NCBI RefSeq assembly: GCF_003967195.1
Contig: NZ_AP018725.1
Coordinates: forward strand, 62,001 to 126,000
Length of the DNA stretch: 64,000 bases
From: Sulfuriflexus mobilis
GTDB lineage: Bacteria; Pseudomonadota; Gammaproteobacteria; AKS1
Reading direction: 5' to 3'
In this document: piece after piece, positions 3,867-34,673 of the stretch
Position numbering within the stretch: position 1 is the stretch's first letter
Layout: the number at the start of each line of letters is the position of its first letter
The notes under the pieces: model-generated
The model's input: only the letters and a program-made list of their open reading frames with translations
Database searches by the model: none
What the model was told of the DNA's origin: nothing
Made by a program: the position numbers and the translations under genes

Positions 3867-3990
3867 ATACTGACGTCCTTATTTCTCTGCCTGCCGGCGT
3901 GTAATCATGCAGGCTTTCCGACATAATCAATCACTCGCGGCCAGGCGCCGTTCTCTATTTTTAATTAAAGCATTTCCACACCGAATACGC

Positions 3991-6705
3991 ATGACTAAAA
4001 CCACGAAAAAACCACTCATCCTCGTCGACGGCTCTTCGTATTTGTACCGCGCTTTCCACGCCATGCCTTCGCTGACCAATTCGCAAGGCCAGCCTACCGG
4101 GGCGATTTACGGGGTTATTAACATGTTACGCCGCCTGTTGCGCGAACATGAGCCGCAACACATCGCCGTGGTCTTTGATGCCAAGGGCAAGACCTTTCGC
4201 GATGCGATGTATAAGGAGTACAAGGCCCACCGACCGCCGATGCCGGATGAGCTGCGTGGTCAGATCCAGCCTATTCACGACATCATCAAGGCCATGGGGT
4301 TGCCGATCCTGGTCGTAGATGGCGTCGAGGCTGATGATGTGATCGGCACCCTGGCCGTTGAGGCGAGCAGACAGGGTATGCCGACACTGATATCCACTGG
4401 CGACAAGGATATGGCACAGTTGGTGGATGATTCGGTGACCCTGGTTAACACCATGACCGAACTCGTCTCCGACCCGGCGATGGTCGAGGAAAAGTTTGGC
4501 GTGCGCCCGGATCAGATCATCGATTACCTCACCCTCATCGGCGACAAGGTCGATAACGTGCCGGGTGTGCCCAAGGTCGGGCCGAAGACGGCGGTGAAGT
4601 GGCTGGCCGAATACGGCGATCTGGAAACCATCATGGCCAATGCCGATCAGATCAAGGGCAAGGTGGGTGAATACCTGCGCGACAGCCTCGAGCAGTTACC
4701 GCTGTCAAAGCAGCTCGTGACCATCAAGTGCGATGTCGAACTGGGTGATGGGCCGAACAGTTTGCAGCGCCAGCCGGTGGATAGCGAGGCCCTGCGTGAG
4801 CTGTACAGCCAGTTTGAATTCAAGACCTGGCTGGCCGAGTCGCTTGAGAGTGGCGATAAAAAGCATGGCAATCCCGCAGCGAATGCCACCAAGGCTGAGT
4901 ATGTAACGGTTTTAAAGAAAAAAGAGTTTAATGCCTGGTTGAAGCAGTTGCAGGCGGCAGGCCTGTTCGCCTTTGATACCGAGACCACCAGCCTGGATTA
5001 TATGCAGGCCGAGATCGTCGGGGTATCGTTTGCCATTGAAAGTGGCAAGGCGGCTTATGTGCCGGTTGCACACGATTATGAAGGCGCGCCTGTGCAGCTT
5101 GAGCGTGACTGGGTGCTCGAACAACTACGGCCATTACTGGAAAATCCAAAGCAGGCCAAGCTCGGTCAGAACCTCAAGTACGACATGAATGTGTTGGCAA
5201 ATTACGGTATTCGCCTGCAAGGTATCGCACACGACACCATGCTCGAGTCTTATGTGCTCGACAGTACCGCCACCCGTCATGATATGGATTCACTGGCGCT
5301 GAAATACCTGTCATACAAGGCCATTTCTTATGAAGACGTTGCCGGCAAGGGCAAGTCGCAGGTGACCTTTAATAAAGTCGACCTTGAAACCGCCGCACCG
5401 TATGCTGCTGAAGATGCCGACATCACCCTGCGCCTGCATGAAAGCCTGTGGCCAAGACTGAAAGGCGATGCCCCCTTGCAGTCCGTGTATCGTGATATGG
5501 AAATCCCCTTGGTGACGGTATTGGCAGACATAGAGCGTAACGGTGTGCTGGTTGATGCCAAGATGCTGGGTAAGCAAAGCGAGCTGCTGGCAACGCGCCT
5601 AATGGAGATCGAAGCCGCCGCCTATAATGAGGCCGGTGAAGAATTTAACCTGAGTTCACCTAAACAGATTCAAACCATTCTGTTTGAGAAACAGGGTTTG
5701 CCGGTGTTAAAGAAAACACCCAAGGGACAACCGTCAACCGCCGAGAATGTCTTGCAGGAACTTGCCGAGGATTACGATTTTGCGCTGCCGAAACTGATTC
5801 TTGAGCATCGAGGGTTGAGTAAACTCAAATCGACCTATACCGATAAACTGCCCTTGATGATCAATGCAAAAACGGGTCGCGTCCACACCTCTTATCATCA
5901 GGCCGTGGCGGCGACCGGGCGACTTTCGTCGAGTGACCCGAACTTGCAAAACATTCCGGTACGCAGCGAAGAGGGGCGGCGAATCCGCCAGGCCTTTATT
6001 GCACCGAAGGGCCACAAGATTGTTGCCGCTGACTATTCGCAGATTGAGTTACGTATCATGGCGCACCTGTCGGGCGATCAGGGCCTGTTAACCGCCTTTG
6101 CCGAGGGCGAGGATGTACATCGTGCCACCGCCGCCGAGGTGTTCGGGGTCGGTCGTGACGCCGTCACGTCCGGCCAACGACGCAGTGCCAAGGCGATCAA
6201 TTTCGGTTTGATCTATGGCATGTCGGCCTTTGGCCTGGCCAGACAACTCGATGTCAGTCGTGGTGAGGCGCAAAACTATATCGATCTGTATTTTGCCCGC
6301 TACCCCGGTGTTAAAAACTTTATGGAAGAAACCCGCGAGCGTGCACGTGAGCAAGGTTACGTTGAGACGGTGTTTGGCCGTCGCCTCTATGTACCGGACA
6401 TCAAGGCCTCGAACATGCAGCGCCGCCAGTATGCCGAGCGTACCGCGATCAATGCCCCCATGCAGGGGACCGCGGCGGATATTATCAAACATGCCATGAT
6501 CGCCTGCGCCAACTGGATTGGGCGTGATAACAGACAAGTACGTATGATCATGCAGGTTCACGATGAACTCGTGTTTGAAATCGCCGAGGCCGCTGCAGAT
6601 GAGGCGGTCGGCCAGATCACGGCTTGCATGAGCCAGGCCGCCGAACTGGCCGTGCCACTCGAGGTCTCGGTAGGCATGGGTAAGAACTGGGACGAGGCCC
6701 ATTAA
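3991..6705 (+). CDS. polA: DNA polymerase I
   Basis: A 904-residue full-length Pol I for Okazaki fragment processing and repair synthesis. Residues 1 to about 290 form the 5' nuclease domain (LVDGSSYLYRAFHAM, VEADDVIGTLA). The 3'-5' proofreading domain is intact: Exo I DTET at 329-332, Exo II NLKYDMN, and Exo III YAAEDAD. The polymerase domain carries motif A DYSQIELR (from D681), motif B RRSAKAINFGLIYG and motif C VHDE (about 856). The ATG at 3991 fits the family N-terminus, so the 28-codon upstream extension is not used. It is followed by a structured intergenic region and convergent engB, a conserved gammaproteobacterial order. Confidence 0.97.
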   Translation: MTKTTKKPLILVDGSSYLYRAFHAMPSLTNSQGQPTGAIYGVINMLRRLLREHEPQHIAVVFDAKGKTFRDAMYKEYKAHRPPMPDELRGQIQPIHDIIKAMGLPILVVDGVEADDVIGTLAVEASRQGMPTLISTGDKDMAQLVDDSVTLVNTMTELVSDPAMVEEKFGVRPDQIIDYLTLIGDKVDNVPGVPKVGPKTAVKWLAEYGDLETIMANADQIKGKVGEYLRDSLEQLPLSKQLVTIKCDVELGDGPNSLQRQPVDSEALRELYSQFEFKTWLAESLESGDKKHGNPAANATKAEYVTVLKKKEFNAWLKQLQAAGLFAFDTETTSLDYMQAEIVGVSFAIESGKAAYVPVAHDYEGAPVQLERDWVLEQLRPLLENPKQAKLGQNLKYDMNVLANYGIRLQGIAHDTMLESYVLDSTATRHDMDSLALKYLSYKAISYEDVAGKGKSQVTFNKVDLETAAPYAAEDADITLRLHESLWPRLKGDAPLQSVYRDMEIPLVTVLADIERNGVLVDAKMLGKQSELLATRLMEIEAAAYNEAGEEFNLSSPKQIQTILFEKQGLPVLKKTPKGQPSTAENVLQELAEDYDFALPKLILEHRGLSKLKSTYTDKLPLMINAKTGRVHTSYHQAVAATGRLSSSDPNLQNIPVRSEEGRRIRQAFIAPKGHKIVAADYSQIELRIMAHLSGDQGLLTAFAEGEDVHRATAAEVFGVGRDAVTSGQRRSAKAINFGLIYGMSAFGLARQLDVSRGEAQNYIDLYFARYPGVKNFMEETRERAREQGYVETVFGRRLYVPDIKASNMQRRQYAERTAINAPMQGTAADIIKHAMIACANWIGRDNRQVRMIMQVHDELVFEIAEAAADEAVGQITACMSQAAELAVPLEVSVGMGKNWDEAH

Positions 6706-6724: not shown

Positions 6725-6752
6725 GGAACTTTTCTCCCCCTGGGGCATCTTA
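6725..6752 (+). promoter_or_regulatory. sigmaE/AlgU-type promoter
   Basis: GGAACTT at 6725-6731 is followed by exactly 16 bases and then TCTTA at 6748-6752. This matches the extracytoplasmic stress sigma factor consensus GAACTT-N16-TCnnA. It lies just after the polA stop codon and points into a structured noncoding stretch ending in a terminator, so transcription would begin near 6758-6760. Promoter use is inferred. Confidence 0.65.
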
Positions 6753-6758
6753 TTTGTA

Positions 6759-6870
6759 TACGCCATTTGGCGTCTTTCCGGCCCACTCCCTGGTCGGAAG
6801 GAAGGTTCGGCCCCCCTCATTGCCGAACTTTTATTTTGGCCCCGTTCACCCCCCTGAACGGGGCTTTTTT
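6759..6870 (+). ncRNA. Candidate small RNA in the polA-engB interval (Spot 42/ErsA position)
   Basis: About 112 nt predicted between the sigmaE-type promoter and a strong intrinsic terminator. Four hairpins can be drawn: ACGCC/GGCGT (6760-6773), TTCCGGCC/GGTCGGAA (6776-6799, one G-U pair), GTTCGGC/GCCGAAC (6805-6828) with a C-rich loop CCCCCTCATT, and the terminator (6839-6864). No credible ORF is present. Spot 42 (spf) in enterobacteria and the AlgU-dependent ErsA of Pseudomonas occupy this same interval. The C-rich loop could pair with Shine-Dalgarno sequences. I could not align it with either RNA, so homology is unproven. Confidence 0.65.
6839..6870 (+). terminator. Rho-independent terminator
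   Basis: A 10-bp perfect stem GCCCCGTTCA/TGAACGGGGC with a six-C loop is followed by six T residues. It ends the plus-strand transcript between polA and engB. Confidence 0.9.
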
Positions 6871-6881
6871 ATGCCGCTAAT

Positions 6882-7484
6882 TTATTTCGTTGGCGCACCC
6901 AACCAGTTTGCAATATGCTCGCGGGCCTCTTCAACCCCTTGTTTATTAAGGGAAGAAAACAACTGCACGGTACTATTAGGATAGTCCTTATTCAGTTGAT
7001 GACGAAGTTTTTGCAGTATCCCGCCGCCGGCACCGCGTGAGAGTTTGTCGGCCTTGGTGAGGAGGATATGCACGGGTAGCTTGGAGGATTGGCACCAATC
7101 GAGCAATTGGCGGTCATACTCTTTAAGTGGATGACGGATATCCATAAGCAGGATCAGGCCCCGTAAGGCCTGGCGCTTTTCGAGATAGAGGGTAAGTTCA
7201 CGCTGCCACTCCTGCTTGACCCGTTCAGGGACCTTGGCGAAACCATAGCCGGGCAGATCAACCAGCCGGCGTTCGTCATCAAGGGCAAAAAAATTGATTA
7301 ACTGGGTGCGTCCAGGTGTCTTACTGGTACGTGCGAGGCTGCGAACACCGCTAATGGTATTCAGTGCACTGGACTTGCCGGCGTTGGAACGTCCGGCAAA
7401 GGCCACTTCGGCACCACTGTCGGCGGGGCACTGATTGAAGCGTTGAGCGCTAACCAGGAAGTTGGCGCGTGAAAAATCGATCAT
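6882..7484 (-). CDS. engB: Ribosome biogenesis GTPase EngB (YihA/YsxC)
   Basis: A 200-residue small GTPase needed for assembly of the 50S subunit. The G-motifs are visible: G1 GRSNAGKS (31-38), G3 DLPGYG (76-81), G4 TKAD (143-146), plus a G2-type Thr in TSKTPGRTQ. The frame extends upstream to 7628, but the ATG at 7484 gives [14 protein letters not shown], the usual family start. It converges on the polA transcript, and its promoter region is shared with the divergent cytochrome c5 gene. Confidence 0.95.
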
Positions 7485-7741
7485 AGTCCGAACCGGGGCA
7501 TAATTGAATGAAGGGCGTAATTTACTGTAAATATTGGTAAAAATACAGAAAAACCGAATTGTACGGAGGGTTTTCAGGTTGACCGCGACAAGCCCCCTCT
7601 GGTATATATTCAGGCCATTTTTGCGCACCGTGAGCGGCGCGGGTCAGCGAAGCCGTTTCTGCACACAAAGGGGCAGGGCGGCGCGGCCCAGATGACAGAA
7701 TTTTTAGCTAACTAGAGCCCCTTGTGGGCAGGAGTAAAACG

Positions 7742-19425: not shown

Positions 19426-21253
<1,828 letters not shown>

Positions 21254-21269
21254 ACATAACTGGATTAAC

Positions 21270-21294
21270 CCGGGGCCATTCTTTATGGCCCCGG
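21270..21294 (+). promoter_or_regulatory. Intercistronic hairpin norB-norQ
   Basis: The 10-bp perfect stem CCGGGGCCAT/ATGGCCCCGG with loop TCTTT has no following T run, so it is more likely an RNA-stabilising or partial attenuating structure than a full terminator. A smaller hairpin CAGGTG/CACCTG occurs at 21343-21361. Confidence 0.6.
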
Positions 21295-21452
21295 TGTTAG
21301 TAATCAATGCCCCAATCAGGTCCTAATCTCAAAAATATCTTCCAGGTGAATTTTCCACCTGAATAATTATTTTTGCAGAATTAACAGCCGGTTATTGTAG
21401 TGATTGAGTGTAATAATGTATCTATGGATAGGTATTTCATAGGGGAAGCCTG

Positions 21453-22274
21453 ATGGCAGATTCGGCAAAAGAGGTAACGGCAGTGTCTGAGACGCAGGCT
21501 GCGCCGTATTATTTATCAACTGGAAACGAAGAAGCCCTGTTCGAGCATGCCTGGCAACACCAATTACCCGTACTGATTAAAGGCCCTACAGGTTGTGGCA
21601 AGACCCGTTTTATTCGCTATATGGCAGAAAAATTGGGGCGTCCACTTTATACCGTTGCCTGTCATGATGATTTGACGGCCGCTGATTTAGTGGGTCGTCA
21701 TCTTATCGGCGAGGGCTCGACCTACTGGGTAGATGGCCCGTTGACCCGTGCAGTGCGTGAAGGGGGGATTTGTTATCTGGATGAAGTGGTTGAGGCTCGA
21801 AAGGATACCACCGTTGTGTTACATCCACTCTCAGATGACCGGCGAATATTACCGATAGAGCGTACCGGCGAAACCCTCGAGGCATCACCGGACTTTATGC
21901 TGGTGGTCTCGTATAACCCGGGATACCAGAACTTGCTCAAGGGAATGAAACCCAGTACCCGGCAGCGATTTGTTTCAATGCGGTTTTCCTACCCAGGGCC
22001 CAAAAAGGAACAGGCCATTATTCTGGCTGAAACCGGTATCACCGAGCATCGGGCCAAGCAGCTGGTGTCATTGGCGAATGCACTTAGGGCCTTAAAGGAT
22101 CATGACCTGGAGGAAAGTGCCAGTACCCGCTTATTGGTCTATACGGCAACCCTTATCAAAGGTGGGTTTGACCCGGTAGAGGCCTGCCGGGCGGCATTGG
22201 TTGAACCCCTGACCGATGATGAAGAAACTGTTAATGCCTTAATGGAAGTGGTCTATGCCACGTTTGGCCGCTGA
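21453..22274 (+). CDS. norQ: NorQ/CbbQ-type MoxR AAA+ ATPase
   Basis: A 273-residue AAA+ protein of the CbbQ/NirQ/NorQ group. Walker A is GPTGCGKT (44-51) and Walker B is CYLDE (107-111); a sensor region follows. With NorD it is needed to activate NO reductase, probably by helping insert or arrange the non-heme iron. An AGGGGA ribosome site precedes the ATG. It starts about 200 bases after norB and overlaps the next gene by 20 bases. Confidence 0.93.
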   Translation: MADSAKEVTAVSETQAAPYYLSTGNEEALFEHAWQHQLPVLIKGPTGCGKTRFIRYMAEKLGRPLYTVACHDDLTAADLVGRHLIGEGSTYWVDGPLTRAVREGGICYLDEVVEARKDTTVVLHPLSDDRRILPIERTGETLEASPDFMLVVSYNPGYQNLLKGMKPSTRQRFVSMRFSYPGPKKEQAIILAETGITEHRAKQLVSLANALRALKDHDLEESASTRLLVYTATLIKGGFDPVEACRAALVEPLTDDEETVNALMEVVYATFGR

Positions 22275-22677
22275 AAATAACAACCTGCCCCCATCAGATG
22301 AAAAACCGGGGCAGGGTTTGGCAACCGTTGCAGAACTATTGTATCTGTTTAACCTGCTATTGTTGCCAGGCATTGCTTTTATTATTCTGTTGCTTGTTTA
22401 TATGCGTTATCGCAACACCTCTCCACCATTGGCTGTCTGCCACCTGCGTCAAACAGTATCGGCCAGCATATGGGCTGGTGTAATGCTGGTGCTGGTCAAT
22501 GCATTAATCATCCTGCTCGGCGGCTATGATTCCCCCTCAACCTGGATAGTCGTAATCCTTTATTTCACAACCATTCATGCGACACTGATTTTGCTTGGCA
22601 GCCTCGGGTTGGCTAAGGCCATGGCAAATAAGCATTATCATTTTCCATTGATTGGGCGTAGTTGTTCGGGGGAGTAG
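22255..22677 (+). CDS. Small membrane protein of the nor cluster, unknown function
   Basis: A 140-residue protein with about three or four hydrophobic segments (AELLYLFNLLLLPGIAFIIL, SASIWAGVMLVLVNALIILL, WIVVILYFTTIHATLILLGS). The N-terminus is hydrophilic (MPRLAAENNNLPPSDEKPGQ) and no cofactor motif stands out. Its start lies inside the end of norQ (20-base overlap), and the polyferredoxin gene begins five bases after its stop, so translation of the three is probably coupled. It is in the place occupied by other small accessory genes (such as norE or norF) in other clusters, but I see no clear sequence identity to them. Confidence 0.8.
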   Translation: MPRLAAENNNLPPSDEKPGQGLATVAELLYLFNLLLLPGIAFIILLLVYMRYRNTSPPLAVCHLRQTVSASIWAGVMLVLVNALIILLGGYDSPSTWIVVILYFTTIHATLILLGSLGLAKAMANKHYHFPLIGRSCSGE

Positions 22678-22682
22678 GTATA

Positions 22683-23648
22683 ATGAACTCCTGTTCTTCA
22701 TGTGCATCGGCAACCACATCTGAATCAAAAGAGGCAATTGCTCCCCGTTTGCAGCTGAGACGACGTTTATTTCAGAGCAGTTTCTTCATCTTTTTCATCT
22801 TTGCGCCTGTACTCGACATATTCAGACTGGATTTGACACTGGGTCATTTTATCTTCTTTGGATATAACTGGACGCTGGGCCTGGATCCGCTGCTGGCAGG
22901 AGAAGCAAGCTCGCTCGAGGCGGTATCCAATATCATTGTACGTGGATTTTTACCCCTATTAGGGGTTGTGCTGGCTTTCGGCTGGACCTCATGGAAATAT
23001 GGCCGTCTTTACTGTGGCTGGTTATGCCCGCATTTTTCGGTAGTGGAAATGGTTAACGGCCTGATGCGGCGTGCCAGTGGGAAGCTCAGCATTTGGGACA
23101 GACAGAAACTATCAAGGCAACGCCCCGATGGGCAGATAGTCGAGACAAATAACCGATACTGGTGGCTGGTGTTTATCGCCGTTGTGGGGTTTGCTTTTTT
23201 ATGGGCTGTGGTCTTTCTGACGTATTTATTACCGCCAAAAGAGATTTATCATAATCTTCTGAATTTGAGTTTAACGCGTAATCAAATGCTGTTCATTAGC
23301 GTGGCAACGTTGTTACTCAGCATCGAGTTCATGTTTGCCCGTCACCTGTTTTGTCGCTTTGCCTGTGCTGTAGGGGTTTTTCAGAGCCTGGTATGGATGG
23401 CCAACAAACACGCGATGGTTGTCAGTTTTGAGCGCCAGAGTGCAGCGGACTGCCTGGGTTGTCATCATGCCTGTGAAGATGAATGCCCTATGCGCCTTAA
23501 ACCCCGATCTATTAAACGACGTATGTTCAACTGTACCGAGTGCGCACGATGTCTTGTTGCCTGTGAACAGGTGCAGTCAGAGAAAAGCAGGCCCTCATTG
23601 CTAAAGTGGCAAGATGGGCAATCTGCATTGCAGGAAAGTGACCGCTAA
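22683..23648 (+). CDS. Membrane polyferredoxin (CcoG/NapH-like) in the nor cluster
   Basis: A 321-residue membrane protein with several helices and Fe-S motifs. The membrane part has YCGWLCPH and FCRFACAVG, the two CxxxC(P) motifs typical of NapH/CcoG/NosR proteins. The C-terminal part has two ferredoxin-type clusters: CLGC-x3-C-x3-CP, and CTEC-x2-C-x3-C. It could pass electrons from the quinone pool or cytoplasm to a periplasmic target, or assist metal delivery. CcoG reduces Cu(II) in other systems. The function in nor clusters is not established. Translation overlaps norD at TAATG. Confidence 0.87.
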   Translation: MNSCSSCASATTSESKEAIAPRLQLRRRLFQSSFFIFFIFAPVLDIFRLDLTLGHFIFFGYNWTLGLDPLLAGEASSLEAVSNIIVRGFLPLLGVVLAFGWTSWKYGRLYCGWLCPHFSVVEMVNGLMRRASGKLSIWDRQKLSRQRPDGQIVETNNRYWWLVFIAVVGFAFLWAVVFLTYLLPPKEIYHNLLNLSLTRNQMLFISVATLLLSIEFMFARHLFCRFACAVGVFQSLVWMANKHAMVVSFERQSAADCLGCHHACEDECPMRLKPRSIKRRMFNCTECARCLVACEQVQSEKSRPSLLKWQDGQSALQESDR

Positions 23649-25555
23649 TGGCACTCAGGGCACCGAGGGCATTACAAGTTATACACCGCCTGGTAGAACT
23701 GGAAGAGCATGTTGGTACCTTATGGCATCGTTTGGTAACGCAAACAGCAACGCAACGTTATCCTGATGCGGCGGTATATCTGGAAGATGTGCGACGTAGT
23801 GTTGGTGTGCTGTTTCGAGCTATGGGTGGCGATGGTGGTCTCAAGATAGCATCGACACCGGCCACAGAATACGGTGCGCAACGTACCTGGTTGCAACGCA
23901 TTGCCGGTACGAATAAGCATGTGGAGCTGGCCTGGCGTAATGAATCATCATTAAATCTTCCGGCCTGTATTGATGTATTTGCCAAACAGGAACTAAACCA
24001 TGATCTGTATTTGTGGCTGGCTGCACTGGCATCGGCAGATGGTGGCATCAGGCAAGAGCAGAATGACTGGATTAATTATAACCAGTGGTTGAGTTGCAAG
24101 GTATTAAAACGCTTTCCGGGCCTGATAAACCGTTATCAACGTCTGGTCGAGGCGCAGTTGGCATTACGACCCGATGTGAGAAATTTAACTACTGATGCCG
24201 CCAAACTGGAACTCGCTATCCAGCATGCTTTAGAGCATCCGGGGCAGGCAAGAGCCTTACCCGATCTATCAAAGCCTCCACGTTATCTACCGCAGCCCGT
24301 TTTCCTGTGGCTGCATCCCTCACCGCCGCTGTCTGCAACGGCTTCAACCTTACCCCAGGATGATGAAGCTATGCCCGAGGCTAATGGAGAGGTTATTGAC
24401 CCACAGGAACAACGTCGCTATCGGGCGGAAAAAGTCGATATGCCTGATGGTAAAAACGGCCTGGTACTGGATCGATTTGAAAATATATTCAGCTGGGCCG
24501 AATACATCAAGGTTGATCGTAGCACGGACGAGGATGAAGACCTGGAATCAGCAGAAGATACGGCAAAAGACCTTGAACAGCTGAGCGTCGCACGTGACAG
24601 TAAAACCACGGCAAAACGCATACGGTTTGACCTTGATCTACCATCGGCTGAGAGTGATGACAGCCCCTTGGGGGAAGGTATCCTGTTACCAGAATGGGAT
24701 TACCGAAAAGGTGAATTAATCAAAGACTATTGCTGCCTGCAGCCAATGATTGCCGATACAGCGGAGGCAATAGAATTACCCACAGCATTGCGTAGCACAG
24801 CAAAGCGGCTTCGCAGTCAGTTTGAAGCACTGGTTCCATCACGGATCTGGTATCGCGGCCAGCAGGAAGGCAGTGAAATTGATCTCGATGCTTACCTTGA
24901 TTTTATTACTGAGCAAAAACAGACGCGGGCAATTGCCGAGCAGGGTATGTACCGTGAATTCCGTGGCGGGATACGTGACCTGGCCTGTTTATTACTTGCG
25001 GATCTGTCACTCTCAACCGACTCCTGGGTAAATAATCATGCAAGGGTTATTGATGTAGTACGTGATAGCCTGTTGTTATTTGCCGAGGCACTTTCGGCCA
25101 CGGGTGATCAATTTGCCATGTATGGATTTTCATCACGTTATCGGCAACATATTCGTTTTCATACCTTAAAGACATTTAACGAAGCGCATAACAATATTTC
25201 GCGTGGCCGTATTAATGCCATCAGGCCAGGTTTTTATACTCGCATGGGTGCGGCAATCCGGCAGGCAAGTGAGATACTAAGTAAGCAACCCGCCAGCCAG
25301 CAATTATTATTATTGCTCACTGATGGCAAGCCCAATGACCTGGATCAGTATGATGGGCGTTATGGTATTGAAGACACACGCATGGCGTTGATTGAGGCAC
25401 GTCGCCGAGGCCTGCAGCCATTTTGTGTGACCATTGACGAAAAGGCAGGCGATTATTTACCCTATATGTTTGGCGCGGATAATTATGTAGTGATACGTAA
25501 ACCCTCTGAACTGCCACGTGAATTACCTTTGTTGTATGCGCGACTCACGCATTAG
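23648..25555 (+). CDS. norD: NorD-like von Willebrand factor A protein
   Basis: A 635-residue protein with a C-terminal vWA domain. The MIDAS motif is DLSLS from D452, and a later LLLTDGKPND segment completes the domain. The N-terminal part is helical and lacks a clear family motif. NorD works with the NorQ AAA+ ATPase as a chaperone pair that activates NO reductase. The start overlaps the stop of the upstream polyferredoxin gene. An acidic stretch near 290-320 (DEDEDLESAED) is notable. Confidence 0.92.
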   Translation: MALRAPRALQVIHRLVELEEHVGTLWHRLVTQTATQRYPDAAVYLEDVRRSVGVLFRAMGGDGGLKIASTPATEYGAQRTWLQRIAGTNKHVELAWRNESSLNLPACIDVFAKQELNHDLYLWLAALASADGGIRQEQNDWINYNQWLSCKVLKRFPGLINRYQRLVEAQLALRPDVRNLTTDAAKLELAIQHALEHPGQARALPDLSKPPRYLPQPVFLWLHPSPPLSATASTLPQDDEAMPEANGEVIDPQEQRRYRAEKVDMPDGKNGLVLDRFENIFSWAEYIKVDRSTDEDEDLESAEDTAKDLEQLSVARDSKTTAKRIRFDLDLPSAESDDSPLGEGILLPEWDYRKGELIKDYCCLQPMIADTAEAIELPTALRSTAKRLRSQFEALVPSRIWYRGQQEGSEIDLDAYLDFITEQKQTRAIAEQGMYREFRGGIRDLACLLLADLSLSTDSWVNNHARVIDVVRDSLLLFAEALSATGDQFAMYGFSSRYRQHIRFHTLKTFNEAHNNISRGRINAIRPGFYTRMGAAIRQASEILSKQPASQQLLLLLTDGKPNDLDQYDGRYGIEDTRMALIEARRRGLQPFCVTIDEKAGDYLPYMFGADNYVVIRKPSELPRELPLLYARLTH

Positions 25556-25637
25556 TTAATTATGAATATTAAAGAATTACTCATGCTACGCACTGATGTC
25601 TAAAATTAAATGATCATTTTCATTGTATGGTGAAACA

Positions 25638-27134
25638 TTGAAAGAATATCTACACAAAGTCCGAAACCTGGCAATCATCTTTATATTACTGATTGTCAGC
25701 GGGCAGGTTGCTGCTGCGGGAATTCAGGATCATTTTCCATTAATCCAGAAATTCTTTCCAGAAGCTGATGGTGTTGGTGATCTTGAAGGCCAACCAGCAT
25801 CTGCTGCGGTACTTAAAGGCTCGAATGTCCTGGGTTATGTCTATTACACAGATGATGTTATAAAAATTCCCGCCTACTCAGGTAAACCAATACGAACCCT
25901 GGTTGGTTTTGATATAGAGGGCAAGATCGTGGGGTTGAAGATAGTACACCACGAGGAACCTATTCTTGTGGTGGGTATATCCGATGCGGATTTACAGGCG
26001 TTCATAGATCAGTATCTAAATAAATATGTTAATGACAAAATAAAAGTTGGTGGCAGGGATCGAGATGGATATAAATCGATTGATTCCATCAGCGGTGCAA
26101 CCATTACGGTTATGGTGCTTAATGCGACGATAAATCAATCAATGCGTAAAGTCGCAGAGGCACGTGGCCTGTTGAGTCTCGACGGTGAAATATTGGCCCA
26201 GACGAAAGCATTTGATGAAGAACCAATTTGGATTTATGTCTGGCGCGGCAAAGTGTTCCAGATTTCAGTTTTAATTCTTGGTCTGGCCGTATTGATGCTG
26301 ATTCTGGTTATGCAGGACTGGATTGCACAGCACCCAACTTTTTTAATCTATTTGCGTACTGGATTCCTCATCTACACGGTAGTCTTTATTGGCTGGTATT
26401 CGCTGGCACAACTTTCAATTGTCAATATCTTTACCTTTGTTAATTCTTTTATGCATGGTTTCAGCTGGGATAATTTTCTTATTGACCCGATGATGTTTCT
26501 TTTATGGGGCTTTGTTGCAGTCACGGTTCTATTGTGGGGCCGTGGCGTGTATTGCGGCTGGCTTTGCCCTTTTGGCGCCATGCAGGAATTGATTTTTCGT
26601 ATTACGGAGCGTTGTAAGTGCCCAACATTCGAATTCCCTGAAGTCGTGCATGAACGTTTATGGGCGATTAAATATATTATTTTGCTGGGATTATTTGCAG
26701 TATCGATGCAGTCATTGGTTATGGCGGAAAAACTGGCTGAAGTAGAACCTTTTAAAACCGCGGTAACATTACGCTTTGCCCGGGAATGGAGTTATGTGCT
26801 CTATGCTGCTGGATTGTTATTGATATCTGCATTTAATCGAAAATTTTATTGTCGCTATGTTTGCCCGCTTGGGGCGGCACTAACGTTCCCGTCTAAATTT
26901 CGAATTTTTGAGTGGCTACGACGCTACAAAGAATGTGGGCGACCCTGCCAGATCTGCAGAAATGAATGTGAAGTCCGCGCCATACGCTCAACTGGTGAGA
27001 TTAATGCCAATGAATGCCATTATTGTCTGGATTGCCAGGTCACCTACTGGAATGCCTATAAATGCCCACCGCTGGCAGAAAAACGTAAAAAAAGAGAACG
27101 TACCAGTAAATTGAGTGAGTCTATGCAGAAATAA
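25638..27134 (+). CDS. nirI: NirI/NosR family membrane flavoprotein, short form
   Basis: A 498-residue polytopic protein. A signal peptide (to about AAAG) is followed by a periplasmic FMN-binding domain with the flavinylation motif DSISGAT near 155, several membrane helices, then YCGWLCP and YCRYVCP, and a ferredoxin-like end (CGRPCQICRNEC and CHYCLDC). NosR and NirI are usually near 700 residues; here the periplasmic stretch between the FMN domain and the helices is much shorter. Because it directly precedes nirS and no nos genes occur here, NirI is favoured over NosR. The start is uncertain: TTG at 25638 has a GGTGA box, TTG at 25623 is the alternative. Confidence 0.85.
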   Translation: MKEYLHKVRNLAIIFILLIVSGQVAAAGIQDHFPLIQKFFPEADGVGDLEGQPASAAVLKGSNVLGYVYYTDDVIKIPAYSGKPIRTLVGFDIEGKIVGLKIVHHEEPILVVGISDADLQAFIDQYLNKYVNDKIKVGGRDRDGYKSIDSISGATITVMVLNATINQSMRKVAEARGLLSLDGEILAQTKAFDEEPIWIYVWRGKVFQISVLILGLAVLMLILVMQDWIAQHPTFLIYLRTGFLIYTVVFIGWYSLAQLSIVNIFTFVNSFMHGFSWDNFLIDPMMFLLWGFVAVTVLLWGRGVYCGWLCPFGAMQELIFRITERCKCPTFEFPEVVHERLWAIKYIILLGLFAVSMQSLVMAEKLAEVEPFKTAVTLRFAREWSYVLYAAGLLLISAFNRKFYCRYVCPLGAALTFPSKFRIFEWLRRYKECGRPCQICRNECEVRAIRSTGEINANECHYCLDCQVTYWNAYKCPPLAEKRKKRERTSKLSESMQK

Positions 27135-27208
27135 TATATTGATATATATAGTTATTTATATATGTAGGGATTTTTTTATTTTTTCCGCGCCTCCTCAGGT
27201 TTTCTCGC

Positions 27209-27222
27209 TTGACCTATATCAA
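27209..27222. promoter_or_regulatory. FNR/Dnr box upstream of nirS
   Basis: TTGACCTATATCAA matches TTGAT-N4-ATCAA with one mismatch, 84 bases before nirS. It follows an AT-rich hairpin and T-rich stretch after nirI, so nirS probably has its own Dnr-dependent promoter. Confidence 0.75.
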
Positions 27223-27284
27223 GGAACTTCTGAAATATAAGTAATAGTTTTCCAAACATAGGGGATTGATATTTCTAACCATAA

Positions 27285-29030
<1,746 letters not shown>

Positions 29031-29049
29031 ACGTAACTGAAGCTGGATT

Positions 29050-29073
29050 GGCGGGGGGATTACTCTCCCCGCC
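29050..29073 (+). terminator. Intercistronic hairpin/attenuator after nirS
   Basis: A 10-bp stem (GGCGGGGGGA/TCTCCCCGCC, one G-U pair) with loop TTAC is followed by TATTCTT. It may partly end the nirS transcript or protect its 3' end, giving more NirS than heme d1 enzymes. Confidence 0.55.
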
Positions 29074-29104
29074 TATTCTTAAGTCGCAGGCCAGAGGCAA
29101 TGTA

Positions 29105-29905
29105 ATGAATCAGTCAAAAAAAGTGTATCTGGTAGGAACCGGGCCTGGAGACCCTGAATTATTAACCGTTAAGGCTTTGCGTTTATTGCAAAATGCTGAT
29201 GTGGTTATTTATGACCGACTGGTATCCGAAGCCATCCTGGAGCAGATCCCAGCAGGCGTTAGCCGGATTTATGTTGGCAAGAAGTCAGGCAATCACACCT
29301 TGCCACAAGACGAAATTAATCAATTATTATTAAATCTGGCAGAAGGCCAGCGCAGTATAGTTCGCTTAAAAGGGGGCGACCCTTTTATCTTTGGACGGGG
29401 TAGTGAAGAAGCCTTGTCACTAGCAAAACATGGTATCGCATATGAAGTTGTACCCGGTATAACGGCCGCATCTGCCTGCACGACATATGCGGGTATCCCG
29501 CTTACACATCGCGGACTGGCACAGGGGGTGCAGATTGTTACGGGGCATAGTCAGGCAGGTCAAGCCCTTGAACTGGATTGGGCGGTCCTGGCCGACTCGA
29601 ATAAAACAATCGTTATTTATATGGGTCTGGCAAATATCGATTTAATTACCAGTAAGCTGATGGATGCAGGTCTGGATGCGAATATTCCTGCTGCAGCTAT
29701 CCAGAATGGTACTACAGCACGCCAGCAGCGGGTATTATCGACCTTGTCTTTGCTATCAGCCGATGTAAAAAAAGCAATGTTACAACCACCTGTTATTTTC
29801 GTCATTGGCAAGGTTGTTTCACTCGCCAGGGAACTAGACTGGTTTGAGACTGAAGACGCTATGAGCGATTATTTTGCAGACAGGAATCAAAGTCTGCATG
29901 GCTAG
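29105..29905 (+). CDS. nirE: Uroporphyrinogen-III C-methyltransferase, NirE
   Basis: A 266-residue SAM-dependent methyltransferase that turns uroporphyrinogen III into precorrin-2, the first step of the siroheme/heme d1 branch. Motifs are VGTGPGDPELL near the N-terminus, RLKGGDPFIFGRGSEE, and VVPGITAASA. It lacks the CysG-type dehydrogenase/chelatase part. Position directly after nirS and before the heme d1 genes supports NirE rather than a cobalamin or siroheme gene. The start is ATG at 29105, not the upstream frame start. Confidence 0.93.
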   Translation: MNQSKKVYLVGTGPGDPELLTVKALRLLQNADVVIYDRLVSEAILEQIPAGVSRIYVGKKSGNHTLPQDEINQLLLNLAEGQRSIVRLKGGDPFIFGRGSEEALSLAKHGIAYEVVPGITAASACTTYAGIPLTHRGLAQGVQIVTGHSQAGQALELDWAVLADSNKTIVIYMGLANIDLITSKLMDAGLDANIPAAAIQNGTTARQQRVLSTLSLLSADVKKAMLQPPVIFVIGKVVSLARELDWFETEDAMSDYFADRNQSLHG

Positions 29906-30263
29906 TCTAAATATGAAAATCTTAAGACTATGCCTTTCGATCATGATGACGTCACTGTTATGTAGCCCGGTTTATTCCGCAGACAGTCATACTAACGACT
30001 ATCAGTCATTATCCAAACAGAGGCGTGAAGAATTACACAACCTTCTTCTCCAGGACTGTGGTTCCTGCCATGGTATGACAATGAAGGGCGGCTTAGGTCC
30101 GGCATTGACACCGGATGCGCTCAGTAACAAATCTCGGCAGATGATTGAGGCGACGATATTATATGGGCGGCCGGGGACGCCAATGCCACCCTGGAATACA
30201 TTATTAACCAAAGAAGAAGTGCGATGGTTAGTTGATACATTATATTCGGGTATAGCGCCATGA
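29898..30263 (+). CDS. nirC: Monoheme cytochrome NirC (cytochrome c55X type)
   Basis: A 121-residue periplasmic cytochrome with a signal peptide ending near VYSA, and heme motif C54-GS-C57-H58. The Met in PGTPMPPWNTLL is a candidate axial ligand. NirC is a small cytochrome in nir operons that can donate electrons for heme d1 formation or to NirS. The ATG overlaps the nirE stop codon; AGGAA lies 11 bases upstream. The stop overlaps nirF start as ATGA. Confidence 0.88.
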   Translation: MASLNMKILRLCLSIMMTSLLCSPVYSADSHTNDYQSLSKQRREELHNLLLQDCGSCHGMTMKGGLGPALTPDALSNKSRQMIEATILYGRPGTPMPPWNTLLTKEEVRWLVDTLYSGIAP

Positions 30264-31429
30264 ATATTATGCCTAAAGTGTTTTTAGGTTGTTCGTTCAG
30301 CCTGTTGGCAGCCTGTACAAGTTTGCGCGGCACGGGTGACCTTGGTGTTGTTATTGAGCGCGGCAGCGGCAGTGTTCAGATCGTGGAAACAAGCAATATA
30401 ACAGCCTTGTCACAAATTGATGGATTAGGTGACCTGTCCCATGCTTCTGTCGTGTATTCGCGTGATGAACGTTACGCCTACATCTTTGGACGTGATGGCG
30501 GGCTTACCAAAATTGATATTCTTACAGCAAAAATAACCAAACGTATTATCCAGGCCGGCAACAGTATAGGCGGCGCAATCTCGCAAGACGGGAAGCTCGT
30601 GGCCGTGTCAAATTACAAGCCGGGGGGGGTGAAAGTCTTTGATTCCAATAGACTCGAACTGCTTGCAGATATCCCGGCCACTTATGCCGATGGCAAGCAG
30701 AAATCAAAAGTGGTGGGACTGGTTGATGCACCGGGTCAACGTTTTGTATTTTCACTCTATGACGCAGGCGAAATCTGGCTGGCAGACCTTAGTCATGGAA
30801 CACCGGAAATTACCCGGTTTAAAAATATCGGTAAGCAGCCTTATGATGGTTTGATTACACCGGATGGTCGTTACTATATCGCCGGCCTGTTTGGAGAGGA
30901 TGGTTTGGCTGTATTGGATCTATGGCATCCGGAACAGGGTGTGAAACGCATCCTGAATAATTATGGTCGTGGTAGTAAAAAAATGCCGGTTTATAAAATG
31001 CCTCACCTGGAAGGTTGGGCTATGACCGAGGACTATGCATTTCTGCCGGCAGTTGGTCGTAATGAGGTCCTGGTGGTGAATCGTCGCAACTGGAAGCAGG
31101 TTGCGTCAATTCCTGTGCATGGCCAGCCGGTATTTGTCATGGCGCGGCCGGATGGCAGGCAAGTATGGGTGAATTTTGCCCACCCACGCAATGATACAGT
31201 ACAGGTGATTGATACTGAGCGTCTGCAGGTCGAGAAAATACTTAAACCGGGTAAAGCCGTGCTGCATATGGAATTTACCCCTCGAGGCGAGCATGTCTGG
31301 ATATCGGCACGTGATGCCGGGAAGGTCACTGTTTATGATACAGAGAGCTTTAATGTCATTAAGACAGTACCGATGGCAAAGCCCAGTGGCATCTTCTTCA
31401 CAAACCGTGCGCACCGTACTGGATTATAA
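30260..31429 (+). CDS. nirF: NirF, heme d1 biosynthesis protein (lipoprotein)
   Basis: A 389-residue protein with an eight-bladed propeller like the d1 domain of NirS, but without a cytochrome domain. The N-terminus MNIMPKVFLGCSFSLLAAC has a lipobox (LAAC), so it should be a periplasmic lipoprotein, as described for NirF of Pseudomonas. NirF acts late in heme d1 synthesis, with proposed dehydrogenation of the precursor. The start overlaps the nirC stop (ATGA). It is followed by nirD after 17 bases. Confidence 0.92.
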   Translation: MNIMPKVFLGCSFSLLAACTSLRGTGDLGVVIERGSGSVQIVETSNITALSQIDGLGDLSHASVVYSRDERYAYIFGRDGGLTKIDILTAKITKRIIQAGNSIGGAISQDGKLVAVSNYKPGGVKVFDSNRLELLADIPATYADGKQKSKVVGLVDAPGQRFVFSLYDAGEIWLADLSHGTPEITRFKNIGKQPYDGLITPDGRYYIAGLFGEDGLAVLDLWHPEQGVKRILNNYGRGSKKMPVYKMPHLEGWAMTEDYAFLPAVGRNEVLVVNRRNWKQVASIPVHGQPVFVMARPDGRQVWVNFAHPRNDTVQVIDTERLQVEKILKPGKAVLHMEFTPRGEHVWISARDAGKVTVYDTESFNVIKTVPMAKPSGIFFTNRAHRTGL

Positions 31430-31446
31430 GTCAGCTGGAGTTTTTC

Positions 31447-31941
31447 ATGCATAGAGCGAATACTGACATTGAACAATTTGCTAAGTATCAGCCTGACAGT
31501 CTGGAGAAGCGCTTATTAAACGATTTTCAGCATAATTTTCCACTAATATCACGTCCATTTCAGAAAATTGCTGAGAAATTAAACACCAGTGAAGAAGTCA
31601 TTATTGACGCCTTGGCTCAGCTACAGGAGCAGGGGTTTATCAGCCGTGTGGGTGCGGTGTTCCGGGCTAACAGCGTTGGTGCCAGTACCCTGGCAGCGAT
31701 GGCCGTACCGGAGCATCGACTAGAAGAAATCGCAGCAATGGTCAGTGACTATAGCGAGGTCAACCATAACTACCAGCGTGAGCATCACTTTAATCTGTGG
31801 TTTGTGCTGACTGCCAGCGATGAACAGGTACTCAATGCGGTGCTTGATGATATTGAGCATCGTAGTGGCATTCCTGTGATGTACTTACCGATGCTGGAGG
31901 ATTATCACATCGACCTGGGATTTGACTTGAAATGGACATGA
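31447..31941 (+). CDS. nirD: Siroheme decarboxylase subunit NirD (Lrp/AsnC-like)
   Basis: A 164-residue Lrp/AsnC-type protein with an N-terminal helix-turn-helix and a C-terminal RAM-like domain. The motif EVNHNYQREHHFNLWFVL is typical of NirD/NirG/AhbA-type subunits. NirDLGH together decarboxylate siroheme to 12,18-didecarboxysiroheme, an intermediate of heme d1. It starts just after nirF and its stop overlaps the nirL start. Confidence 0.92.
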   Translation: MHRANTDIEQFAKYQPDSLEKRLLNDFQHNFPLISRPFQKIAEKLNTSEEVIIDALAQLQEQGFISRVGAVFRANSVGASTLAAMAVPEHRLEEIAAMVSDYSEVNHNYQREHHFNLWFVLTASDEQVLNAVLDDIEHRSGIPVMYLPMLEDYHIDLGFDLKWT

Positions 31942-32480
31942 AAGTCACACTTCGCCTGCCGGAATTGCCTGCGCAGGCCATACTGGATGAACAGGATCAG
32001 TCATTAATCACCTTGATCCAGACAGGCCTGCCTCTCAGCGCAACGCCTTATGCTGATCTGGGTAAGCAGCTTGGTATGGACGAATATGAGGTTATCGAGA
32101 GACTGAAACGATTAACCAGTGAAAATATTATCAAACGTTTCGGCGTAGTAGTACGCCATCATGAACTCGGGTACCACGCCAATGCCATGACGGTATGGAA
32201 TATCCCTGATGAGATTGTCAGTGAACTGGGTTCATGCATGGGGCAGTTTGAATTTGTGACCTTGTGTTATCGTCGTCCGCGTCGATTACCGGAATGGCCG
32301 TATAACCTGTTTACCATGATTCACGGGCAGGATCGGGATGATGTGTTGGCTAATATTCGATTATTGATAGAACGCTGCGGCCTGGATGCGATTGAGCATG
32401 ATGTGTTGTTCAGTACGCGCCGATTCAAGCAACGCGGCGCTATTTACCATAAGACGAATACTATACATGCGGCAAGCTAA
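31938..32480 (+). CDS. nirL: Siroheme decarboxylase subunit NirL (Lrp/AsnC-like)
   Basis: A 180-residue Lrp/AsnC-like subunit that pairs with NirD. The motif FVTLCYRRPRRLPEWPYNL is typical of the NirL/NirH/AhbB branch and differs from the NHNYQR pattern of NirD/G. The ATG at 31938 overlaps the nirD stop as ATGA; an ATG six bases earlier (31932) is possible. nirD and nirL are fused in some organisms; here they are separate. Confidence 0.91.
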   Translation: MKVTLRLPELPAQAILDEQDQSLITLIQTGLPLSATPYADLGKQLGMDEYEVIERLKRLTSENIIKRFGVVVRHHELGYHANAMTVWNIPDEIVSELGSCMGQFEFVTLCYRRPRRLPEWPYNLFTMIHGQDRDDVLANIRLLIERCGLDAIEHDVLFSTRRFKQRGAIYHKTNTIHAAS

Positions 32481-32482
32481 CC

Positions 32483-32926
32483 ATGGATGAAATTGACCGT
32501 AAAATCATTAACACATTGCAGACAGGCTTCCCCTTGAGTGAAGAGCCCTATGCAGAGGTTGCGGATCAGCTAGGCGTAAGTGAAAAAGACTTGTTAAATC
32601 GCCTGTCAGGCTTGCTTGAGAATAAAGTGTTAACCCGTTTTGGTCCGATGTACGACGCACAAAAGCTAGGCGGTGCATTCAGCCTGGTAGCCGTGCGTGT
32701 GCCTGAAGGGGATTTTCACAGGATTGCCGAGATAGTGAATAGCTATCCGGAGGTGGCGCATAATTACCAGCGTGATCATGACTTTAATATGTGGTACGTG
32801 CTGGCAACGGAAACGCCCGAGAAAATTAATGAAGTCAATTACGACATTGAGCAACGCACGGGCTTGAAAGTATTTAATATGCCCAAGCTGGATGAATATT
32901 ATATTGGTCTCCAATTACCGGTTTGA
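32483..32926 (+). CDS. nirG: Siroheme decarboxylase subunit NirG (Lrp/AsnC-like)
   Basis: A 147-residue Lrp/AsnC-type subunit with an N-terminal helix-turn-helix and the motif EVAHNYQRDHDFNMWYVL, the NirD/NirG pattern. Two bases separate it from nirL, and 147 residues is the usual NirG length. It probably forms a complex with NirH in siroheme decarboxylation. Confidence 0.91.
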   Translation: MDEIDRKIINTLQTGFPLSEEPYAEVADQLGVSEKDLLNRLSGLLENKVLTRFGPMYDAQKLGGAFSLVAVRVPEGDFHRIAEIVNSYPEVAHNYQRDHDFNMWYVLATETPEKINEVNYDIEQRTGLKVFNMPKLDEYYIGLQLPV

Positions 32927-32938
32927 TGTGAAGAAAAT

Positions 32939-33466
32939 ATGATGAATACCGTAGCTACAGCGCACAAGTCAGAATTGGAGCAGGGTGCCCTGCTGGACGA
33001 GATTGATCGAAAGATTATTCGTGCCACCCAGTCGGGTTTGCCGCTTGTTTCCCGCCCGTATGATGATGTCGCCAGTCGTGTAGGGATTAGTGCTGGCGAG
33101 GTCATTGCACGTATGCATACTATGCAGCAACGGGGCATCATTCGTCGCATTGCCGCCGTGCCGAATCATTACTCCCTGGGTTATAAAAGCAATGGTATGA
33201 CTGTATGGGATGTACCAGACGATCGCGTCAATGAGCTTGGCCGGCAGGTCGGGGTACTTGGGTTTGTCAGCCATTGTTATCATCGCCCACGTTATTTACC
33301 TGACTGGCCGTATAACCTGTTTGCCATGGTGCATGCGCATAATCGTGACGAAGCGATGTTGCTGGTATCCAGAATTGCCGATTTGCTGGGGGATGCCGAC
33401 CGGGGACATGATGTCCTGTTTAGTCAGCGTATCCTGAAAAAAACCGGCCTGCGACTGTCCACCTGA
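32939..33466 (+). CDS. nirH: Siroheme decarboxylase subunit NirH (Lrp/AsnC-like)
   Basis: A 175-residue Lrp/AsnC-like subunit with the motif FVSHCYHRPRYLPDWPYNL, the NirL/NirH pattern. The N-terminal helix-turn-helix begins around LLDEIDRKIIRATQSG. It lies 12 bases after nirG and 10 before nirJ. Together the four subunits occur in the Pseudomonas order D-L-G-H. Confidence 0.91.
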   Translation: MMNTVATAHKSELEQGALLDEIDRKIIRATQSGLPLVSRPYDDVASRVGISAGEVIARMHTMQQRGIIRRIAAVPNHYSLGYKSNGMTVWDVPDDRVNELGRQVGVLGFVSHCYHRPRYLPDWPYNLFAMVHAHNRDEAMLLVSRIADLLGDADRGHDVLFSQRILKKTGLRLST

Positions 33467-33476
33467 GAGATTAACT

Positions 33477-34673
33477 ATGTTTCGTATAAGCGAATACATG
33501 CGCGAGCTGAAAGCCCCGAGCCCGATTGGCAATAAACGCAATCCGCCGGGGCCAGTCGTTATCTGGAACCTGATACGGCGTTGTAACCTGACCTGTAAGC
33601 ACTGTTATTCGATTTCAGCTGACAAAGACTTCCCTGGCGAGCTCTCGACACAGGAAGTATTTGATGTAATGGACGATCTGAAAGCATTCAGGGTGCCGGT
33701 TTTGATTCTATCCGGCGGGGAGCCGTTATTGCGCCCCGATATCTTTGACATTTCCAAACGGGCTAAAGAGATGGGCTTTTACGTAGGCCTTTCTACCAAC
33801 GGAACCATGATCGATGAGTCCAATATCGATGCCATTGCCGGAATAGGCTATGACTATGTTGGCATCAGTATTGACGGTGTTCGTGAAACCCATGACAGGT
33901 TTCGTCGCAAGCAGGGCGCATTTGATGAATCTATGCGGGGTATACGCCTCTGTCATAAGGCGGGGATTAAAGTCGGCATGCGCTTTACCCTCACCATGGA
34001 TAACGCGCATGAGCTCCCCGAGCTATTAAGCATTATGGAGCAGGAACAGATTGACAAATTTTACCTCTCACATTTGAATTACGCAGGGCGCGGCAATAAA
34101 AATCGTAAAGATGATGTTATTCATCAGCTTACTCGAAATGCGATGGACTTGTTATTTGATACCTGCTGGCTTCATATTGAAGAAGGGCGCAGACGTGAAT
34201 TTGTCACGGGTAATAATGATGCAGACGGTGTTTACCTTTTATACTGGATAGAAAAACATTTCCCCGAAAAGCTGGAGCATATGCGGGCAAAACTGGCACA
34301 GTGGGGAGGTAATTCTTCCGGGGTTAATATTTCCAATATTGATAACCTGGGCAATGTTCATCCCGATACCTTCTGGTGGGATTATGATTTGGGCAATGTT
34401 AAGGATCGTCCCTTCTCTGAAATCTGGCCGGACCGTACAGACCCGCTAATGGATGGACTAAAGTCCAGCCCGCGCCCGTTAAAAGGCCGTTGTGGCCAAT
34501 GCACGTACCTGGATGTATGCGGCGGTAATACCCGCGTACGCGCCTACCAGTTAACCGGTGATTTCTGGGCAGAAGACCCCGCCTGTTACCTTGACGATGA
34601 AGAAATTGGCGTGGAGACGACTGAAGCGCGTTTACAGGTCACACCCTGGTCGCGAAAGAAAAAACTCGCATGA
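33477..34673 (+). CDS. nirJ: NirJ, radical SAM heme d1 biosynthesis protein
   Basis: A 398-residue radical SAM enzyme. The [4Fe-4S]-binding motif is C36-NLT-C40-KH-C43, the SAM segment is SGGEPLLRPD, and the C-terminal cysteines (CGQCTYLDVCGG, then DPACYL) would hold an auxiliary cluster of SPASM type. NirJ replaces the two propionates of didecarboxysiroheme to give keto groups in heme d1 synthesis. The stop overlaps the nirN start as ATGA. Confidence 0.94.
   Translation: MFRISEYMRELKAPSPIGNKRNPPGPVVIWNLIRRCNLTCKHCYSISADKDFPGELSTQEVFDVMDDLKAFRVPVLILSGGEPLLRPDIFDISKRAKEMGFYVGLSTNGTMIDESNIDAIAGIGYDYVGISIDGVRETHDRFRRKQGAFDESMRGIRLCHKAGIKVGMRFTLTMDNAHELPELLSIMEQEQIDKFYLSHLNYAGRGNKNRKDDVIHQLTRNAMDLLFDTCWLHIEEGRRREFVTGNNDADGVYLLYWIEKHFPEKLEHMRAKLAQWGGNSSGVNISNIDNLGNVHPDTFWWDYDLGNVKDRPFSEIWPDRTDPLMDGLKSSPRPLKGRCGQCTYLDVCGGNTRVRAYQLTGDFWAEDPACYLDDEEIGVETTEARLQVTPWSRKKKLA

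Follow-up and report, generated by a model that had tools for sequence, protein, structure and literature searches.

Does the interval between polA and engB of Sulfuriflexus mobilis contain a small RNA (sRNA) gene, and if so, how is that RNA related to the RNAs known from the same place in other bacteria? In the window, which is the whole 64,000-nucleotide stretch of DNA that was analyzed, polA ends at position 6705 on the plus strand and the convergent engB, on the minus strand, ends at position 6882, leaving an interval of 176 bp. The original prediction placed an ErsA-like or analogous RNA under envelope-stress control in this interval, with GGAACTT-N16-TCTTA right after polA. The letters and coordinates of that element were correct to the base. 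The features of the locus are as follows.

3907 to 6705, plus strand: polA, the upstream neighbor (ORF call; Pfam DNA_pol_A, 546 bits)
6725 to 6731, plus strand: -35 element GGAACTT of a sigma-E-type promoter (sequence; kept in 24 of 65 polA-engB intervals and in 4 of 4 genus members)
6732 to 6747, plus strand: spacer N16 (sequence)
6748 to 6752, plus strand: -10 element TCTTA (sequence; spacer of 16 in 23 of 24 interval matches)
6757 to 6870, plus strand: predicted sRNA (start inferred 5 to 7 nucleotides after the -10 element, end in the T run; fold and held-out model R2)
6760 to 6773, plus strand: small 5' hairpin (fold)
6774 to 6801, plus strand: SL1, with loop 6784 to 6791, CACUCCCU (fold; helix covariation; CTCCC kept in all genus members)
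6802 to 6831, plus strand: SL2, with loop 6812 to 6821, CCCCCUCAUU (fold; helix covariation; CCCCCT-AT kept in genus members)
6828 to 6837, plus strand: U-rich stretch CUUUUAUUUU before the terminator, a possible Hfq site (sequence)
6838 to 6870, plus strand: intrinsic terminator with a C-rich loop and a T run (fold and terminator call; helix 3 paired in 97% of cells)
6882 to 7628, minus strand: engB, the downstream converging neighbor (ORF call; Pfam MMR_HSR1)

The RNA from 6755 to 6872 folded with an energy of -55.9 kcal/mol (z = -6.87), a value equaled by 0 of 200 shuffles, and its minimum free energy and centroid structures were identical. The compact hairpins and the intrinsic terminator of the original prediction were thus recovered by folding as the 5' hairpin, SL1, SL2 and the terminator; counting the 5' hairpin, there are three hairpins besides the terminator, of which two are strong. 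SL1 abuts SL2 with no gap between them, and the terminator stem (6838 to 6865) consists of 11 pairs followed by the T run. The U-rich stretch at 6828 to 6837 could serve Hfq, and hfq is present in the genome. As had also been predicted, the plus strand of the interval has no ATG-started open reading frame of at least 20 amino acids; it holds only two TTG frames, one of which runs into engB antisense. A small-protein reading of the interval was dropped, since there was no credible reading frame. A sigma-70 scan of the interval found no promoter.

The sigma-E-type promoter was analyzed in downstream-of-polA stretches from 159 distinct gammaproteobacterial loci, 65 of which have a converging engB. 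The promoter pattern was fixed beforehand from the window, with spacers of 15 to 17 allowed. In the 65 polA-engB intervals, the motif was found on the plus strand in 24 and on the minus strand in 1, while first-order shuffles gave a chance expectation of 0.23 on average and 3 at most. The spacer was 16 nucleotides long in all but one of the 24 intervals. Binomial figures for the motif are tiny but naive, as they ignore the shared ancestry of the sampled genomes, which are related to one another. The aligned sites extend to a wider consensus, GAACTTTT-N13/14-GTCNNA, which we take to be a sigma-E-type promoter from the known RpoE/AlgU consensus sequences. The -35 region reads identically in four genus members, whose spacers and stems have diverged. 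GAACTT-N16-TCNNA has a single site in the window, the one between polA and engB. Since the bare pattern is not enriched genome-wide (17 sites versus 32 for the reversed pattern), the weight of the promoter rests on its conservation.

The genome also encodes the corresponding sigma factor: an RpoE equivalog scored 326 bits (cut-off, 236) and is followed by an rseA-like gene. The rpoE gene is preceded by GAACTA-N16-TCTAT at -76, and GGAACTTTCCCCCGTATTGGCACTCAGA, one of the 17 pattern sites in the genome, precedes rpoH, a well-established target of sigma-E, by 91 nucleotides. The putative rpoH and rpoE promoters of this genome look alike. A separate site on the minus strand (L253, C1:887383), GAACTTTT-N14-TCCTA, lies 137 nucleotides upstream of the gene for a small Cys-rich HvfA/bufferin-like protein.

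Because DNA-level BLAST of the interval against relatives returned only terminator fragments, structure models were needed to follow the RNA itself. At the gathering level, Rfam gave no sRNA match in the window and none in 20 related loci. Permissive scores of the window were all below gathering: ar14, 41.6 bits (cut-off, 58.8); anti-hemB, 36.0 (49.5); sX13, 34.1 (50); ar7, 28.4 (60); Spot 42, 19.7 (80); and ErsA, 15.5 (50). The covariance search with the Spot 42 and ErsA models, proposed as a check on the original prediction, was therefore negative for both. The anti-hemB model, an independent one made from Burkholderia, had exactly one match at E ≤ 0.01 in the window's genome, and this was the polA-engB locus (36 bits, E = 1.2e-6). 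When the same model was searched over 274 genomes of the class, 54 of the 150 matches listed lay at most 2 kb downstream of polA, 51 of them on polA's strand, and the best match per genome was downstream of polA in 50 of 91 (among the matches listed). Other anti-hemB matches adjoin engB where polA is elsewhere, and one RNA from a polA interval (L121) passes the anti-hemB cut-off with 58.4 bits. Of the 11 sub-threshold matches of the ErsA model in the class genomes, 6 were directly downstream of polA.

We also used two models of our own. Model R1, built from nine sequences of gammaproteobacterial polA RNAs and run over 497 kb, gave 60 matches, which were downstream of polA among the matches listed. 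For model R2 we aligned 61 hits, leaving out the window, its genus and sX13. Its top match in the whole genome was the window locus at 6775 to 6872 (57 bits; E = 1.7e-9, R2 E-values being rough), and the next match scored 30 bits. The best R2 places in the congeners (G001, 49.6 bits; G003, 46.7 bits; G002, 33.9 bits) are all flanked by polA and engB. Compensatory changes on both sides were found in 17 of 18 pairs, and 92.8% of cells were paired, compared with 75.7% after shuffling and 54 to 58% when slid by one column, although these pair counts lean towards structure because the alignment was fitted to it. The SL1 stem varies within the genus (four members) by compensated changes, while CTCCC in loop 1 and CCCCCT-AT in loop 2 are constant. 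The C-rich loops are conserved in relatives: among 75 model hits, loop 1 has CUCCC/CCUCC in 59, loop 2 has CCCC in 56 and the terminator loop is C-rich in 54, counts that are descriptive since the selecting model knows those letters. Promoter and stem conservation in related genomes, the lack of which had been set beforehand as evidence against the prediction, was thus present.

Over the phylum (299 genomes), R2 had matches at E ≤ 1e-4 in 18, every one of them a genome of the class, which in the taxonomy used appears to include the betaproteobacteria. Several of these matches adjoin engB and some have a hemB motif nearby; a GAACTT-type promoter is present in at least 5. R1 and R2 both match true sX13 loci. 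At three beta-type loci (L365, L367 and L369), the RNA adjoins engB and/or lies near the hemB motif; two of them (L365 and L367) have a GAACTTTT-type promoter, and the Burkholderia anti-hemB RNA may therefore also be sigma-E-driven. Tandem copies, two to four per interval, were seen at L031, L036, L058, L071, L102, L128, L175, G173:C33 and G264:C3. Elsewhere in the genome of S. mobilis (L272, C1:392038-392142), a second C-rich RNA candidate with CCUACCUCCUCC, CCUCCUCCACCUCCC and a strong terminator lies upstream of rplM-rpsI-like genes and scores 30 bits with R2.

The promoter lies 14 to 38 nucleotides upstream of SL1 in 32 of the 75 model hits, and about 10 further hits deviate slightly from the pattern, usually at the final base of the -10 element. 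Since about half of the related RNAs, including those of two true sX13 loci (L131 and L132), have no recognizable sigma-E-type motif, sigma-E control is not constant across the group. The existence of relatives with no motif would suit a reading in which a genuine RNA arises from the polA 3' untranslated region or from another promoter, GAACTT...TCTTA not being the working one, and with only about 50 bp from polA to the RNA, part of the transcription of polA should run on as far as the same terminator. However, the motif has a strand bias, a fixed spacer and a limited distance to SL1 in many genomes, and it is invariant in the four congeners despite their diverged spacers and stems. We consider an origin from polA or from another promoter improbable. 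The sigma-E/AlgU-type promoter of the original prediction holds up in position, sequence and spacing, and in the presence of a sigma-E gene in the genome.

We think it likely that the window RNA is an RpoE-transcribed, terminator-ended, trans-acting sRNA whose C-rich loops pair with G-rich ribosome-binding regions, and that it is a member of a widespread beta- and gammaproteobacterial engB/polA group. Under envelope stress, RpoE would transcribe the RNA from GGAACTT-N16-TCTTA, and the intrinsic terminator would end a trans-acting transcript of about 113 nucleotides. Its rigid stem-loops would present the C-rich CACUCCCU, CCCCCUCAUU and terminator loops for pairing with the G-rich ribosome-binding regions of mRNAs; in most cases this pairing would prevent translation, in the manner of sX13 in Xanthomonas. 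We infer transcription, sigma-E control, the pairing of loops with mRNAs and the direction of regulation from the anatomy of the gene and the analogies with sX13, ErsA and GsrN.

The original prediction further suggested that in a denitrifier the RNA may tie envelope stress to respiration or carbon use. The premise itself is sound, as judged from sequences: the window carries a denitrification cluster at 19874 to 36256 with NorB/NorQ/NorD-like, NosR-like and cytochrome-cd1-like proteins and heme d1 genes, and a NosZ-type propeller protein is encoded elsewhere in the genome. The proposed tie, however, gained no support. Loop-to-target pairing was predicted by a crude scan of 1.66 Mb with 1366 genes (53% of the genome), in which mRNA structure was ignored, and no significant or conserved target was found among these genes. 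Duplex energies at the start regions were no better than those inside the 1366 genes (-10.45 versus -10.68). Perfect loop complements of at least 8 nucleotides occurred at the starts of 15 genes, versus 9 for reversed loops, and 8 of 60 shuffles reached 15. The best candidates were flagellar, flgC/flgD; their sites are lost in G002, and target claims were dropped.

The near-equal frequency of G-rich start sites for reversed loops, which gives no sign of chosen targets, and the C-richness of the loops in the majority of the family (59, 56 and 54 of 75) would fit a general anti-Shine-Dalgarno mimic, an RNA with CUCC/CCCC loops similar to the 16S 3' end that would lower translation in general during stress rather than act on selected mRNAs. 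Such a mimic is unlikely in our view, given that the scan was crude, covered 53% of the genome and ignored mRNA structure, and that sX13, of like anatomy, uses its C-rich loops to repress mRNAs that carry G-rich motifs close to the start, acting on distinct targets through individual loops (PMC3771888). That the locus is just the polA terminator with chance hairpins and no functional RNA is barely credible: a terminator is expected after polA anyway, but SL1 and SL2 carry compensatory changes, the loop letters are constant while the stems change, and the held-out model scores the locus. Judged from the fold and the comparative tests, the polA-engB interval holds an sRNA gene and not a chance structure, in agreement with the original prediction. 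What the computations establish is the anatomy of the gene, the presence of RpoE, and a promoter, stems, loops and genomic position that are all conserved.

By covariance models and gene order, the sRNA is an instance of an RNA found again and again at polA/engB in many gamma- and betaproteobacteria, where it has gone under several separate names. The group of engB/polA-linked C-rich-loop sRNAs, as defined here, includes anti-hemB and sX13 and perhaps ErsA; the window RNA belongs to it by its R2 match and by its promoter 14 to 38 nucleotides upstream of SL1. Common descent is plausible for anti-hemB, sX13 and the gammaproteobacterial RNAs, which share place, structure and often the promoter; it is less certain for ErsA and unproven for Spot 42, and convergence of GC-rich hairpins with C-rich loops is possible. 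The wider idea, namely a single ancient beta/gamma engB/polA sRNA gene, ancestrally under sigma-E and acting through C-rich loops on ribosome-binding sites, from which anti-hemB, sX13 and ErsA would descend, and perhaps also Spot 42 after a switch to CRP control, is tentative, and we are slightly more inclined to doubt it than to accept it. In the literature searched, with most subscription journals outside its scope, we found no described polA-engB sRNA family outside Pseudomonas, Xanthomonas, enterics or vibrios. The authors of the sX13 study asked whether polA loci of other bacteria encode comparable RNAs (PMC3771888), and for many gamma- and betaproteobacteria the answer is largely yes. 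The results connect families that Rfam keeps apart and among which a stress-sigma promoter recurs. They also provide a ready set of loci for studying how one sRNA gene may have been rewired between envelope stress, as with ErsA, carbon control, as with Spot 42, and other uses, as with sX13, and a first candidate envelope-stress RNA for this denitrifying gammaproteobacterium.

Among the known RNAs, Spot 42 (RF00021), which is under CRP, matches the window in its polA-spf-yihA(engB) order, and the Spot 42 model leaves the window far below its cut-off. When R2 was run on ten enteric and related loci, the spf place was the only match; these matches were rejected as evidence of common descent because they are weak (16 to 21 bits) and carried by the terminator. 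The alphaproteobacterial ar14 and ar7 (RF02344 and RF02342) have C-rich loops like those of the window RNA, and ar14 gave the best Rfam score, still below its cut-off, as was that of ar7. GsrN is a stress-sigma-dependent RNA whose C-rich loop pairs with an mRNA leader (PMC5869019); unlike the RNA proposed here, it requires a different sigma factor and is an activator of katG.

ErsA (Pseudomon-1, RF01719) lies at the polA-engB locus under the control of sigma-22 (AlgU) (PMC8575079, PMC5819304). The window RNA shares with ErsA the polA-engB place, a promoter that by sequence and conservation is of the sigma-22/sigma-E type, and a C-rich terminator loop. However, its ErsA score falls far short, and the 34-nucleotide U-rich unstructured domain between the hairpins of ErsA is absent. 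The description "ErsA-like" therefore stands for place and promoter class only, and by score the RNA is nearer to ar14, anti-hemB and sX13. The sX13 RNA of Xanthomonas (RF02232), whose repression of mRNAs does not require Hfq, is, like the window RNA, polA-adjacent, with three stable stem-loops and C-rich loops, and its model aligns the window at full length, although below the cut-off; the two true sX13 loci analyzed have no sigma-E-type motif, whereas the window has one. The anti-hemB RNA of Burkholderia (ncS04, RF02837), to which PMC5688073 and PMC3521395 assign no function, resembles the window RNA in an SL1 with a CCUCCCUG loop, a second hairpin and a terminator; its score too is below the cut-off, and the window RNA has polA as its neighbor instead of hemB. 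The window RNA is thus outside the ErsA, sX13, anti-hemB and Spot 42 families as defined by Rfam, and combines the place and promoter class of ErsA with an anatomy of the sX13/anti-hemB type.
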